Source of the DNA: Knoellia subterranea KCTC 19937
Lineage (GTDB): Bacteria > Actinomycetota > Actinomycetes > Actinomycetales > Dermatophilaceae
Assembly: GCF_000768685.1 (NCBI RefSeq)
Contig: NZ_AVPK01000005.1
Location: 1-64,000 of the forward strand
Length of the DNA stretch: 64,000 bases
Direction: 5' to 3'
Shown here: one piece after another, positions 17,426 to 22,453 of the stretch
Layout: each line of letters opens with the position of its first letter
How positions within the stretch are numbered: the stretch's first letter is position 1
Program-made: the position numbers and the translations under genes
Notes under the pieces: generated by a model
Database searches by the model: none
What the model was told of the DNA's origin: nothing
Seen by the model: only the letters and a program-made list of their open reading frames with translations

Positions 17426-20101
17426 TCAGTCCTGGATGAAGACGAGCGCCATCGGGGTCTGCTCACTGCCCTGACCCAGGGGGTTGTCGGCGAACATCTC
17501 CTCGAACCGCGCCTTGTCGTCCGGCACGTCGCTGCCGAGGACGTTGCGGCCGATGTCGTTGGCGTCCATGACGATCGTCCCGGCGAACGCGTCCCTGTAT
17601 GCCGCAGGCACCCGACTGCGGATCCCGGCCGACAGGCGTGCGGCCACGTCGTCGGGGTCCTTGGGTGCGAGCTTGGCGGACACGTTGCTCGGGTAGGCGG
17701 AGTACTCGGTCGGGCCGTCGATGGCCGCGATCTGGTTGCCGACGAGTTCGTAGAACAGGCCCTTGCGCCCGATCGCCTTGCCGACCGCGCCACCGGCGGC
17801 GGCGTAGAGGACGCGCGGCAGGCCGGCCTCCTCGATCGCGAGCTGCATGGTGAACGGCGAGCCGAGACCGATGCCGGCCGGCGTGCGGGTGACGTAGCGG
17901 GACAGGACCCGAGCCGGCTTGCCGACCTTGATGTCCCAGACGAAGAACGAGCGGCCCTGCGTGATCGCGATGATCTTCTCGGAGATGAAGAGGTACCAGC
18001 GGCCCTTCGTCGCGGCGTCGTGCTCCGCGCCCGCCGTCGGCAGGGTCTCGAAGAACTCGTCGATGCGGGCGAGGACCTTGGCGTCGAGGTCGTCGTCCTT
18101 GGCGAAGAGCTCGGTGCGCAGCGGATAGCGACGGACGGTCTCGCCACGGTCCGTCGTGAGGTCCAGCGCCTTCCCGGCGTTCGGCTCGACGTCGGACTTC
18201 GGCGCGGCCTGCGCGGTGGCCTTGTCGACCTGCGGCTCCTCGTCGAAGTACTCCTGAAGCCACAGCTCGAGGTTGATGAAGCGCCAGAACATCATCGTGT
18301 CGGCGTTGTTCGAGCCCTTGATCCAGCCCTCGAAAGCGTGCAGCACCTCGGTCTGGTTGAAATAGGGCCGGTTCGCGAACGACTCCGACAGGAAGATCGA
18401 GTAGAAGTGGTTCTTGAGCCGCATGAACCACTCGGACTGCGGCGTCGTGAAACCGATCTTGTTGCGGCGACGGTTGATCGACTCCGGCAGCAGGCCGCGG
18501 GTCGCGTCACGCAGGATGCGCTTGTTCCAGCCGTCCTTGATGATCGCCTCGTCGGTGAGGCTGAAGATGAACTTCACGACCTCCTTGTCGAGGAACGGCA
18601 CGCGTCCCTCGAGTGAGAAGCGCATCGTGTTCTTGTCCTCGTAGCGGAGCAGGCTCGGCAGCGAGTTGTGGAAGAGGTCCTGGACGAGCCGCTTCTTGAG
18701 GTTGCTCTGCTCTACGGGGAAGCGCTCGTCGGTCCACTGCGACGTGAAGCTCGGGTTGAGCAGCGACGTCACGGGCACGTCCTTGCGGCCCTTGAGCTTG
18801 GCCTTGACCCGGAAGCGGCCGAGACGGAACAGGACGTCGAGCGACTTGCTCAGCTCGGCCGCAGCAGCCTTGGCGCCCTGGGCGCGCAGCTGCCGCAGGT
18901 AGACGGCGTAGTACGGGATGTAGCCGGCCATCATCTCGTCGGCGCCCTGGCCGTCGAGGAGGACGGTGACGTGCTTCGTCGCCTCGCGCATCACCTGGTA
19001 CTGCGCGTAGGGACCACTGGAGATGAGCGGCTCCTCCTGCGTGCGGACGAAGTCACGCAGGTCGGCCTTGAAGTCCTCGGGCTTCGGCAGGATCTTGTGC
19101 CCGTCGACGTGGCCCGTGCAGATGTCGAGGACGGCGTCGACGTAGCGCTCCTCGTCGTTGATCGAGTTCGGGAAGACGGCGCTGAAGGTGTTCTGCTGCA
19201 CGCCGACCGACTCGGTCGTCTTGTCACCGTCGTTGATGAGCTGGTTGATGACGACGGCCACGGCGCTCGAGTCGAGACCCCCCGACAGGGACGTGCCGAC
19301 CGGCACCTCGGACTGCAGACGGAGGCGGATGGACTCGATGAGGCGCGCCTTGTATTCGGCCGCGGCCGCGTCGTCGTAGGGACGCTGCTCGGTGGCCAGT
19401 TCCAGCAGTTCCTCGCGCAGGCGCGTGAACATCGAGCGGCGTATGCCGTTCGCGTCCGCCTCGAGCATCTCGCCCGGCTGGAGGCGCTCGATGCCGTCGA
19501 AGAACGTCTCCGTCCCGTCCTCGTGGGCGCGGAACTTGAGGTAGCGGTAGATCGAGCGCTCGTTCGGATTCTTCTCGTAGAGGCCGCTGCGCAGGATCGG
19601 GCGGATCTCGGAGGCGAACAGGAGTCCCTCGGACGGGGACCCACCCTCGGAGCCGGCCACCCGGCATACATAGACGGGTTTGATCCCGAAGTGGTCTCGA
19701 GCAAGGGTGAGCCGCTGCTCGTCGCGGTCCCAGATCGCCAGGCCGAACATGCCGTTGAACCGGTCGAACGCCTCGCCGCCCCACTGCGCGAACGCCTGAA
19801 GGACGACCTCCGTGTCGCTGTCGGTCTCGAACGTGCGACCGAGTGCCTCGAGCTCGCCGCGCAGGTCGAGGTAGTTGTAGACCTCACCGTTGTAGGCGAT
19901 CGTGTAGCGCCCGTCGGCCGTCGCCATCGGCTGCTGACCGTGAGCGACGTCGATGATCGAGAGGCGGCGGTGCGCGAGCCCGCACGGTCCATCGACAAAA
20001 ACGCCCTCACCGTCGGGACCGCGGTGCTCCATGCAGTCGTTCATCGTGCCCAGAAGCGCCTCGTTGGCGTTCAGGCCGTAATAGCCGGCGATGCCGCACA
20101 T
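17426..20101 (-). CDS. Asparagine-synthetase-type amidotransferase fused to a CofE-like (F420 gamma-glutamyl ligase family) domain
   Basis: The 891-residue protein has an N-terminal class II glutamine amidotransferase (1-about 210, catalytic C2 in MCGIAGYYG), an Asn-synthase ATP-pyrophosphatase domain (about 235-620, PP-loop SGGLDSS near 271-279, LLDGQGADEMMAGY), a Lys/Pro/Glu linker, and a C-terminal domain of about 235 residues (about 655-885). The latter has SEKIIAITQG, GIGLGSPFTMQLAIEEAG, IDGPTEYSAYPSNV, KLAPKDPDDVA and VMDANDIGRNVLG, which I match to the F420-0:gamma-glutamyl ligase family. Ordinary AsnB is 600-650 residues. The amidotransferase half should transfer Gln-derived ammonia to a carboxylate; the ligase half suggests ATP/GTP-dependent acylation with an amino acid. 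A true substrate is unknown. Confidence 0.75.
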   Translation of the reverse strand: MCGIAGYYGLNANEALLGTMNDCMEHRGPDGEGVFVDGPCGLAHRRLSIIDVAHGQQPMATADGRYTIAYNGEVYNYLDLRGELEALGRTFETDSDTEVVLQAFAQWGGEAFDRFNGMFGLAIWDRDEQRLTLARDHFGIKPVYVCRVAGSEGGSPSEGLLFASEIRPILRSGLYEKNPNERSIYRYLKFRAHEDGTETFFDGIERLQPGEMLEADANGIRRSMFTRLREELLELATEQRPYDDAAAAEYKARLIESIRLRLQSEVPVGTSLSGGLDSSAVAVVINQLINDGDKTTESVGVQQNTFSAVFPNSINDEERYVDAVLDICTGHVDGHKILPKPEDFKADLRDFVRTQEEPLISSGPYAQYQVMREATKHVTVLLDGQGADEMMAGYIPYYAVYLRQLRAQGAKAAAAELSKSLDVLFRLGRFRVKAKLKGRKDVPVTSLLNPSFTSQWTDERFPVEQSNLKKRLVQDLFHNSLPSLLRYEDKNTMRFSLEGRVPFLDKEVVKFIFSLTDEAIIKDGWNKRILRDATRGLLPESINRRRNKIGFTTPQSEWFMRLKNHFYSIFLSESFANRPYFNQTEVLHAFEGWIKGSNNADTMMFWRFINLELWLQEYFDEEPQVDKATAQAAPKSDVEPNAGKALDLTTDRGETVRRYPLRTELFAKDDDLDAKVLARIDEFFETLPTAGAEHDAATKGRWYLFISEKIIAITQGRSFFVWDIKVGKPARVLSRYVTRTPAGIGLGSPFTMQLAIEEAGLPRVLYAAAGGAVGKAIGRKGLFYELVGNQIAAIDGPTEYSAYPSNVSAKLAPKDPDDVAARLSAGIRSRVPAAYRDAFAGTIVMDANDIGRNVLGSDVPDDKARFEEMFADNPLGQGSEQTPMALVFIQD

Positions 20102-20157: not shown

Positions 20158-21750
20158 TCACTCCCATTCGATCGTCCCCGGCGGCTTGCTCGTCACGTCG
20201 AGCACCACTCGGTTGACCTCGCGCACCTCGTTGGTGATGCGGGTCGAGATCTTGGCAAGCACCTCATAGGGCACGCGCGTCCAGTCGGCCGTCATCGCGT
20301 CCTCGGACGAGACCGGACGCAGCACGACGGGGTGGCCGTAGGTCCGACCGTCTCCCTGGACACCGACCGAGCGAACGTCCGCCAACAGCACGACCGGGCA
20401 CTGCCAGATGTCGCGGTCGAGTCCGGCCGCCGACAGCTCATGGCGGGCGATCTCGTCGGCCGCACGCAGGATGTCGAGGCGATCGGCAGTGACCTCACCG
20501 ACGATGCGGATACCGAGGCCGGGTCCTGGGAACGGCTGGCGCCAGACGATGACCTCGGGCACCCCGAGCTCGAGCCCGACTTGGCGCACCTCGTCCTTGA
20601 AGAGGAGACGTAGCGGCTCGACGAGCTTGAACTGGAGGTCGTCGGGCAGGCCACCGACGTTGTGGTGCGACTTGATGTTCGCCGTGCCCGTGCCACCACC
20701 GGACTCGACGACATCGGGATAGAGCGTGCCCTGGACGAGGAACTCGACCGGGTGCCCCTCGCGCTCGCCCGAGCCGACGATGTCGCGGGCGGCCTGCTCG
20801 AAGACACGGATGAACTCGCGTCCGATGATCTTGCGCTTCTCCTCGGGGTCGCTCACCCCGGCGAGCGCGGAAAGAAACTGTTCACGCGCGTCGACGACGA
20901 CGAGGTCGACGCCGGTCGCCTCGACGAACTCCTTCTCGACCTGCTCGGCCTCGCCCGAGCGCAGCAAACCGTGGTCGACGAACACGCAGGTGAGCTGGTC
21001 GCCGACGGCACGCTGCACGAGTGCGGCCGCGACGGACGAGTCGACGCCACCGGAGAGGGCGCAGAGGACACGCTTGTCGCCGATGGTCTCCTTGACGTCA
21101 GCGACGAGGGACTCGACGACGTTGGCCGCGGTCCACTCCCCCGACAGCCCGGCTCCGCGCAGGAGGAAGTTCTCGAGCACCCGCTGACCGAACGTCGAGT
21201 GCATGACCTCGGGGTGCCACTGCACGCCGTAGAGACGACGCTCGTCGTCCTCGATCGCTGCCACGGGCGCACCCGACGTCGCCGCCGTGACGCGCATGCC
21301 CTCGGGCGCGGAGGTGGCCGAGTCGCCGTGGCTCATCCACACCGACTGCTCGGCGGGCTGCCCGTTGAAGAGGGTGGACTCGGTGTCGGAGACCTGCGCC
21401 GGGGTCGAGCCGTACTCGCTCAGACCGGTGCGCTCCACCGTGCCGCCAAGGGCCTGGACCATCGCCTGGAAGCCGTAGCACATGCCGAAGACCGGCACCC
21501 CGGCCTCGAGCAGCGCCGGGTCGAGCTTCGGGGCGCCGTCCTCGTAGACCGAGCTCGGGCCACCGGACAGGATGATGGCCGCCGGCTCCTTGGCGAGCAT
21601 CTCGTCGGCTGCCATCGTCGACGGCACGACCTCGCTGAAGACGTTGGCCTCACGCACGCGGCGGGCGATGAGCTGGGCGTACTGGGCGCCGAAGTCGACG
21701 ACGAGGACTGGGCGGTCCGACAGGACTTCGGAGTGGGGGGTCTCGCTCAC
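20158..21750 (-). CDS. guaA: GMP synthase (glutamine-hydrolysing)
   Basis: The 530-residue enzyme converts XMP to GMP. It has a class I amidotransferase domain ([10 protein letters not shown] with the catalytic Cys, and HPEV His/Glu), the PP-loop ATPase ([14 protein letters not shown]) and the C-terminal dimerisation domain ending [12 protein letters not shown] 21750 is chosen over GTG 21756 because TAGGCT is exactly 6 nt upstream. A copy of GTATGCC lies just beyond the stop at 20144. Confidence 0.95.
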
Positions 21751-21756
21751 CCGCAC

Positions 21757-21784: not shown

Positions 21785-22453
21785 TCAGCGCCAGAGGGTG
21801 TCGACCTCGGAGGCCTCGACCGAGTCCGGGTAGGGGTTGGTGCACGACGGGCCGGGGCCACCGCCGGACATGAGCTTGCTGCACGGCTGCGTGTAGCGGT
21901 CGGGCAGGCCGAGCGCATGGCCGGTCTCGTGGGCGACGATCCGCAGCGGCGCGTAGACGTCGGCCTGCGCGTAGTCCATGAAGATGTAGCCGTCGCCCTG
22001 GCCGCGGCCGTAGTAGTAGGAGCCGCGGGTGTCGTTGCCCTCGTAGTACTTGAGGGCACCGCCCGCGCCGTCCTTCTCGACGAGCTTGACGTTGGCGACC
22101 CGTGCGTTCCAGATGGCGGCGCTCTGGTCGATGAGGCTGTCGAAGCTGGGCGCCTGCGAGTCGTCGTAGTAGATGACCGTCGCAGCCGCGACCGGCTTCT
22201 TCGCGCCCGTGGCCGCCTCGCGAGCGGCCTCCCTCTTCGCCTCGGCGAGCCGCTGCTCGAGCGCCGCCTGGATCCGCGGGTCGAGAGAACCCTCCGTGTA
22301 GGCCGCGTGGCCGGCTTGCGCTGTGGGTGCAGCGAGCGCAGGGGCTGAGGGCGCGACCGGCCCGGCGACGGGTGCGACGGGTGCGCCGCTCAGGGCGGCG
22401 GCTCCCGCGAGCGCGGCGGCTCCGGTGGCGATGGTGCGACGAAGGGTGGCCAT
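21785..22453 (-). CDS. Secreted snapalysin-like (M7) zinc metalloprotease
   Basis: The 222-residue exported protein has a Sec signal with an Ala-rich core (1-about 40), an Ala/Glu/Arg-rich propeptide-like helix (about 55-90) and a metalloprotease domain with HETGHALGLPD, the HEXXHXXGXXD signature of metzincins such as Streptomyces small neutral protease. The GGGPGPSC...SEVDTLW ending is typical of that family. Two cysteines near the C-terminus may form a disulfide. The upstream region holds two palindromic operators and an array of GGTCA repeats, implying tight regulation. In Streptomyces, snapalysin genes are usually under an adjacent LysR gene; none is here. Confidence 0.85.
   Translation of the reverse strand: MATLRRTIATGAAALAGAAALSGAPVAPVAGPVAPSAPALAAPTAQAGHAAYTEGSLDPRIQAALEQRLAEAKREAAREAATGAKKPVAAATVIYYDDSQAPSFDSLIDQSAAIWNARVANVKLVEKDGAGGALKYYEGNDTRGSYYYGRGQGDGYIFMDYAQADVYAPLRIVAHETGHALGLPDRYTQPCSKLMSGGGPGPSCTNPYPDSVEASEVDTLWR

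Follow-up and report, generated by a model that had tools for sequence, protein, structure and literature searches.

Does a protein that carries an asparagine synthetase and a ligase-like domain on one chain work as a single two-step enzyme, or does it hold together two enzymes that can part? The question is raised by a gene in the first 64,000 nucleotides of contig NZ_AVPK01000005.1 from the actinobacterium Knoellia subterranea KCTC 19937 (this whole stretch is called the window below; the source genome measures 3.57 Mb). An earlier note on this DNA had described the 891-residue product as a glutamine amidotransferase, an asparagine synthetase and a domain resembling the F420-0:gamma-glutamyl ligase CofE, and had proposed that it couples amide transfer with amino-acid ligation. 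The three parts are borne out by Pfam, by TIGR01536 and by the modelled fold. An obligatory two-step enzyme finds no support, since the AsnB half decays repeatedly beside a constrained CofE-like half and the CofE-like part also occurs alone. We lean towards a tethered pair of separable enzymes, an asparagine synthetase and an F420-independent CofE-type amide ligase.

Architecture of the fusion protein

The AsnB-type part, amidotransferase and asparagine synthetase, covers residues ~1-620 and is followed by a linker and the CofE-like C-terminus, all three in one frame (Table 1). Pfam analysis reports GATase_7 (145.9 bits) and Asn_synthase (214.7 bits) domains, and an F420_ligase hit (PF01996, residues 662-831) that reaches 15.8 bits with the whole protein, below the 25-bit cut-off. 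In the full-length model, the predicted local distance difference test (pLDDT) score of the linker averages 47 at residues 621-630, which suits a flexible tether, and 69 at residues 631-640. The fused frame is present in all 9 genomes of the genus that were searched, K. subterranea included, and is therefore not a chance frame. Rfam analysis of the window reports no family above threshold.

The N-terminal half exceeds the cut-off of the asparagine synthase equivalog TIGR01536 (393.2 bits against 267.1; residues 2-551) and shares with asparagine synthetase B (1ct9) the full GATase and Asn_synthase domains and all motifs examined, while differing from it by the second, C-terminal enzyme domain and by the repeated inactivation seen in this architecture. 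It keeps Cys2, which we take to be the glutaminase nucleophile, together with Arg46, Asn71 and Asp96, the ATP pyrophosphatase loop (PP-loop) SGGLDSS at residues 273-279 and Lys548, the last two presumably serving the synthetase domain, Lys548 as its catalytic lysine. Besides the fusion, the Asn_synthase matches in the source genome stay at or below 27.5 bits, as they do in three genomes with a decayed AsnB half (G002, G006 and G035, the decayed genomes covered). Judging from its family and these motifs, the N-terminal half is probably a fully equipped glutamine-hydrolysing asparagine synthetase that would make free asparagine, and no second one was found in the source genome.

A two-step enzyme would work otherwise, the CofE-like half first adding glutamate to a small molecule, whose new carboxylate the AsnB half would then amidate. 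A comparable logic operates in the synthesis of N-acetylglutaminylglutamine amide (NAGGN), where an AsnB-type amidotransferase partners an amino-acid ligase of a different fold encoded by a separate gene. The NAGGN amidotransferase family TIGR03104 does match the window protein with 301.6 bits, though far below its cut-off of 570.1; the AsnB half passing the asparagine synthase cut-off speaks against this scheme, which, with the decay and the standalone genes described below, we regard as improbable.

The C-terminal domain and its kinship with CofE

The earlier note had staked its CofE assignment on a structural match and on the retention of nucleotide and metal residues in at least some homologues. 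An AlphaFold2 model of residues 647-891, built on a 61-row alignment (mean pLDDT 91.6, predicted template modelling score 0.88), retrieves Archaeoglobus fulgidus CofE (2phn) with Foldseek (E 2.5e-7) and aligns with it over 188 residues in VIA (Z 13.4, root-mean-square deviation 4.1). The next unrelated VIA row reaches a Z of only 4.8, leaving this CofE as the only convincing match in the PDB. The model argues convincingly that the domain has the CofE fold, and two aspartates are invariant, so that the assignment survives the refutation set out in the note. At the sequence level, the C-terminus alone scores 21.0 bits with PF01996, still below the cut-off, and all 12 members of alignment A1 match this family at E <=0.1 (best 1.2e-14). 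The profile of A1, the more diverse of two alignments, reaches CofE among PDB chains at E 6e-5, and hhalign comparison with 31 CofE-type sequences returns 95.5% with A1 and 28.5% with A2.

The profile alignments place the CofE motif SKxxSKxEGR on SEKxxxxQGR of the fusion domain, and DPD on DPD. In the A1 alignment, the aspartate of CofE SDTxGR (Asp150) faces Asp846, and in one of the two alignments Asp109 of CofE lies opposite Asp795. Asp109 and Asp150 are, we assume, metal ligands of CofE. Both Asp795 and Asp846 are present in 124 out of 124 distinct domain sequences, and these two columns probably correspond to the CofE ligands. Such invariance suggests that the domain is probably a nucleotide-dependent amide ligase acting on an F420-independent substrate. 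One report presents CofE as a ligase that depends on GTP and two Mn2+ ions and has a primary and a secondary pocket for glutamate; Arg234 is named there among the contacts to F420 (PMC10861534). The last residue of the model aligns with CofE residue 222, so that the fusion domain stops before the position of Arg234.

Compared with CofE and the FbiB N-domain (2phn, 2g9i, 7uld; COG1478), the fusion domain thus has the same predicted fold over most of its length and shares the motifs above, but differs by ~30-40 extra residues in its middle carrying the motifs GIGLG.P.TM.LAI...G and G.FY...G, by its sub-threshold Pfam score, by its earlier C-terminus and by hosts that mostly lack CofH over the cut-off. 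No relative of the C-terminal domain was found in viral contigs.

Repeated decay of the AsnB half

A scan of one genome per species found at least 569 stretches encoding relatives, of which the best 80, nearest to the window's domain, were kept. The domain is fused to AsnB in 68 of these 80 loci and stands alone in 12, a fused share that is biased upwards because the best 80 are the loci closest to the window's domain. AsnB shows no clear decay in 51 of the 68 fused copies, partial loss in 8, and loss of catalytic residues in 9. Counted among the 51 are three partial copies (L107, whose frame is short, and L099 and L126, in which a contig end truncates AsnB), L057, which has no aligned Cys2, and L135, which has Val at Asn71; L084 and L093, also cut by contig ends, were scored dead from the remaining part. 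Together with two further Knoellia copies (L046 and L047), the 9 make up 11 dead rows, the others being L070, L077, L079, L083, L084, L089, L093, L097 and L117. The mildest, L079, has Cys2 changed to Ser and a PP-loop reading SGGLESS. The 8 copies with partial loss, all labelled Intrasporangiaceae and including those of Terrabacter, Terracoccus and Humibacillus, have Arg46 and Asn71 replaced and keep the synthetase motifs.

The two dead Knoellia copies have Cys2 changed to Ser and Asn71 to Asp, have lost Lys548, and read TDGLASA and SAGTDSS at the PP-loop positions. Their identity to the window protein is 56% and 66% over AsnB against 93% and 91% over the CofE-like half (L046 and L047, respectively). 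The ratio of nonsynonymous to synonymous substitution rates (dN/dS) follows the same divide. Between the window and these two copies it is 0.31-0.57 for the AsnB domains and 0.11-0.12 for the CofE-like domain, and between the two copies themselves 0.37-0.47 and 0.11. For the three intact Knoellia pairs (among the window, L121 and L074), AsnB gives 0.08-0.22 and the CofE-like domain 0.12-0.23, and for two intact pairs outside the genus 0.17-0.23 and 0.20-0.28. This selection contrast is measured, among dead genomes, in the two Knoellia. The AsnB half has thus decayed repeatedly over an intact CofE-like half, so that the latter probably does a job of its own, and a two-step enzyme sits poorly with this pattern.

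On a quick 88-row tree without bootstrap, at least 8 changes are required to account for the dead state, and starred branches force 4 of these. With shuffled labels the mean is 10.6, and a count as low as that observed was reached in 3 of 500 shuffles, indicating that decay is scattered though not fully random. The tree omits L135, L037 (the same gene as L077), L048, L049, the distant rows L043-L045 and L050-L055, and the loci below L036. Two Actinopolymorpha have standalone genes that branch as the sister group of three dead copies (support 89, without a star), a placement that suits a series from intact through dead to lost. In two pairs of fused paralogues, each from one genome (L062/L082 and L059/L087), one copy shows a loss of glutaminase residues and the other is intact.

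How can such losses be borne? Asparaginyl-tRNA synthetase (AsnRS) is above its cut-off in none of 23 genomes, compared with 7 of the 14 named genomes used as a control. Best scores are 88-94 bits in Knoellia and G035, against a cut-off of 342.6, and 188-240 bits in G332, G337 and G354, which may have one. The low scores in Knoellia and G035 suggest that Asn-tRNA is probably made there by transamidation and that free asparagine is dispensable for translation; loss of its synthesis would then probably be tolerable in Knoellia.

The dead AsnB frames remain open. Simulated neutral decay of this half accumulates a mean of 2-7 stops, and 0 stops are left in 0-6 of 60 runs depending on the settings, whereas the AsnB halves of L046 and L047 contain none, which is what one would expect if ribosomes can reach the CofE-like half only by reading through the dead one. 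Neither of the two has a start codon with a Shine-Dalgarno match just before the CofE-like domain. Alternatively, the dead AsnB halves might be pseudoenzymes that still serve the CofE-like half structurally or as sensors, for example by dimerising or by binding glutamine, aspartate or ATP. Fused frames of 711-894 residues do persist with dead AsnB halves, and the dN/dS of the two dead Knoellia halves is not 1. Moreover, the Terrabacter group, devoid of Arg46 and Asn71, keeps Cys2, the PP-loop and Lys548 with an AsnB dN/dS of 0.15-0.30 (three pairs). However, translation alone can account for an open frame, several dead halves are shortened and share 27-36% identity with the window (L070, L077, L083, L089, L097 and L117), and the 12 loci of the best 80 that carry the CofE-like part without AsnB do without any such support. 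Pseudoenzymes appear rather unlikely on this evidence.

Relation to F420 and folate synthesis

CofH was chosen as the marker of F420 synthesis because CofD (PF01933), tried for the same purpose, also matches in E. coli and Lactococcus and was rejected as unspecific. CofH exceeds its cut-off in 2 of 30 domain-bearing genomes, the source genome not among them; 6 more of the 30 give weak matches far under it, and 3 of 14 named genomes pass as a control. Two of the handles, G035 and G350, return the same places in the CofD and FolC searches and are probably one genome. In the majority of the tested hosts, the CofE-like domain does not serve as an F420 ligase. The source genome also encodes a separate CofE (E 2.5e-36), its only PF01996 match at E <=0.001. 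This cofE lies next to a cofD (G000:C32:97676-99306, locus L001), and the best CofH score of the genome is 25.8 bits against a cut-off of 374.1. F420 synthesis may be incomplete there, a precursor may be imported, or CofH may lie in an assembly gap.

The CofE superfamily offers one precedent for an F420-independent function. The COG1478 member FolC2 (CT611) of Chlamydia is reported to complement an E. coli folC mutant (PMC1971073), and literature searches turned up no other F420-independent CofE homologue with an experimental function. The fusion domain might likewise be a folate gamma-glutamyl ligase. In the Bacillota locus L241, the cofE-like gene comes after genes for a class-I glutamine amidotransferase, for an enzyme that binds chorismate and for an Aminotran_4 protein, which are read as pabA-pabB-pabC, and L242 is alike; such neighbours are limited to this one small group. 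FolC2, compared here by description rather than by sequence, belongs to chlamydiae, which according to that source lack folC, whereas FolC itself is above cut-off in 22 of the 30 domain-bearing genomes, the source genome included. These 22 include each of the 12 actinobacterial handles and each of the 5 from Clostridia, and the 8 genomes without it are all Patescibacteria-type metagenome-assembled genomes (MAGs). Replacement of a missing FolC was accordingly set aside for the 22 genomes, and a FolC2-like function is quite doubtful.

Fused, adjacent and standalone forms

The survey of fused and split versions and of their neighbours proposed in the earlier note brought all three forms to light. 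The domain was found in 16 of the 39 genomes near the window; in 15 it is part of the fused frame, and in G020 it is encoded by a separate gene that directly follows asnB. Across the phylum, 18 of 296 genomes show a match. Separate adjacent genes, asnB followed by a cofE-like gene, occur at L036 and L040. Distant actinobacteria thus hold the pair either in fused form or as two neighbouring genes, which a two-step enzyme would explain, as it would the 51 fused copies without clear decay; standalone cofE-like genes, in contrast, are common. In the phylum of the Oscillospiraceae MAG G346, the family is matched at E <=0.001 in 97 of 249 genomes, a few of them only weakly, mostly in frames of ~210-320 residues and in some of 390-660. 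In other lineages of the phylum to which Knoellia belongs, tetratricopeptide-repeat proteins are fused to a CofE-like domain (L043:3416-5182 and L044:7009-8532), and in a Coriobacteriales MAG a second AsnB-type gene lies directly upstream of the fusion (L073:2179-4056). No publication on an AsnB-CofE fusion was found among open-licence PMC articles, a search that papers under subscription may escape.

The fused set among the best loci includes Patescibacteria. In the tree, the Saccharibacteria copies L104 and L105 belong to a starred group with Brachybacterium and Helcobacillus, L071, L072 and L079 fall among actinobacterial rows (support 87-88), and L109 stands apart on a long branch. The nested copies could be explained by transfer or by mis-binned contigs. 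Four of the fused copies come from MAGs titled Saccharibacteria or Nomurabacteria (L104, L105, L071 and L072), for which transfer from host to epibiont is possible, as is mis-binning.

Gene neighbourhoods

In the window, the fusion gene follows guaA on the same strand (Table 1). Of the best 80 loci, 13 have guaA upstream at a frame-to-frame distance of 0.06-3.2 kb, and 12 of these carry the label Intrasporangiaceae. A functional partnership was set aside, as the distance is 0.3-3.2 kb in 11 of the 13 and guaA is unseen in the other 67 fetched stretches; the adjacency reflects regional synteny rather than membership of the system. On its other side, guaA of the window adjoins a gene for an extracellular M7-type neutral protease (21785-22453).

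Table 1. Position of the fusion gene, its domains and key residues, and its upstream neighbour in the window
Feature	Position	Strand	Basis or remark
Whole fusion gene, 891 residues	17426..20101	-	ATG start; exact open frame
Class II glutamine amidotransferase (glutaminase) domain, residues 1-215	19457..20101	-	GATase_7 44-170, GATase_6 29-147; Cys2, Arg46, Asn71, Asp96
Cys2	20096..20098	-	Sequence; Ser in L046, L047, L079, L117; Ala in L097
Asn_synthase (ATP pyrophosphatase) domain, residues 250-616	18254..19354	-	Pfam; TIGR01536 covers residues 2-551
PP-loop SGGLDSS, residues 273-279	19265..19285	-	Sequence; altered in dead relatives whose frame extends that far
Linker, residues 621-646	18164..18241	-	Low pLDDT in full-length model
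CofE-like domain, residues 647-891	17429..18163	-	Model pLDDT 91.6, predicted CofE fold; PF01996 sub-threshold
Asp795 (IDGP motif), invariant	17717..17719	-	Faces CofE Asp109 in the A2 profile alignment but not in A1
Asp846 (MDAND motif), invariant	17564..17566	-	Opposite CofE Asp150 in the sole profile alignment reaching Asp846
guaA (GMP synthase), upstream neighbour	20158..21756	-	56 bp from the fusion gene, same strand

Other lineages show other neighbours, some of the lists being read by eye without a family search. Fourteen loci titled Roizmanbacteria, Woesebacteria, Microgenomates, Patescibacteria or simply bacterium were examined, with gene names confirmed by Pfam on L114 and L127. Upstream are an M48 peptidase and LemA in 11 of them, and downstream gatA in 12 and gatC and gatB in 11 each, sometimes with intervening genes; in L115, L116 and L124 a CofE-like part without AsnB occupies this position. 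A standalone cofE-like gene lies directly downstream of glmS in 3 of 7 Oscillospiraceae/Clostridia loci (L129, L130 and L134), and a GlmS link was dropped because it is restricted to these. Among 20 further Bacillota stretches, the gene is found in 17, the frame lists of L244, L247 and L249 holding none of the family. A Polysacc_synt/MurJ-like flippase-type gene stands beside it in L239-L242 (Pfam run on L239 and L240) and a wall amidase adjoins it in L238, neighbours too local to carry a wall link; the rest of the 17 neighbourhoods have no shared partner that could be recognised. The earlier suggestion of a wall precursor as substrate therefore keeps only the scattered hints of these standalone genes (glmS in 3 of 7 loci, flippase-type genes in four Bacillota loci, an amidase in one), and the neighbourhood in the window offers none.

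Glutamine users, namely AsnB, GatCAB, GlmS and GuaA, recur among the neighbours in different lineages and hint at a shared pathway. They would also suit a CofE-like domain that is a non-catalytic sensor of nucleotides or amino acids for glutamine amidotransferases. Yet a sensor would hardly require two invariant aspartates nor outlive a dead AsnB, and in 15 of the 17 Bacillota neighbourhoods the amidotransferase queries match nothing up to three genes away, making this role very unlikely.

A probable pair of enzymes on one chain

The tethered pair of separable enzymes that we favour would operate as follows. The N-terminal half would make free asparagine. The C-terminal half would use a nucleotide (GTP in CofE) together with divalent metals to activate a carboxylate of a metabolite other than F420, and would then link this carboxylate to an amino acid, probably glutamate. 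Side by side or fused, the two genes probably give products that are used or regulated together. This tie would not be obligatory. In hosts that can do without free asparagine, the AsnB half may shed its catalytic residues, and its frame would stay open as long as the constrained CofE-like half is translated through it. A coupled reaction in the intact lineages may still be compatible with the data.

Several points weigh against the tethered pair. Kinship with CofE is thin by sequence alone; the A2 profile retrieves no chain at E <=1 among PDB sequences, and the correspondence of Asp795 with CofE Asp109 depends on the alignment, A2 giving it and A1 not. The 51 of 68 fused copies without clear decay suit some functional link between the halves, and a dN/dS below 1 in dead AsnB halves suggests that residual constraint may persist. 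The count of losses comes from the quick tree described above. Finally, L083 and L117 have one candidate internal start each, and the lack of stops in dead copies outside Knoellia proves nothing, as these were recognised through their open frame.

Implications

A broader proposal, to which we give somewhat less than even credence, is that an F420-independent amide ligase of CofE fold, with an undescribed substrate, is widespread in Actinomycetota, Bacillota and Patescibacteria, and that in Actinomycetota it became fused behind an asparagine synthetase that died many times and was kept open as a translated leader. If true, nature would offer repeated examples of an enzyme that lives on at the tail of another's fossil. 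The only Pfam match of the domain names it after the F420 ligase, yet 28 of the 30 genomes have no CofH over the cut-off. A conserved ligase-like family that reaches 97 of 249 genomes in one Bacillota group, Patescibacteria of ~1 Mb and many actinobacteria points to a missing metabolite, and the genus Knoellia, in which some species have an intact AsnB half and others a dead one, forms a natural experiment on whether the two halves are coupled.

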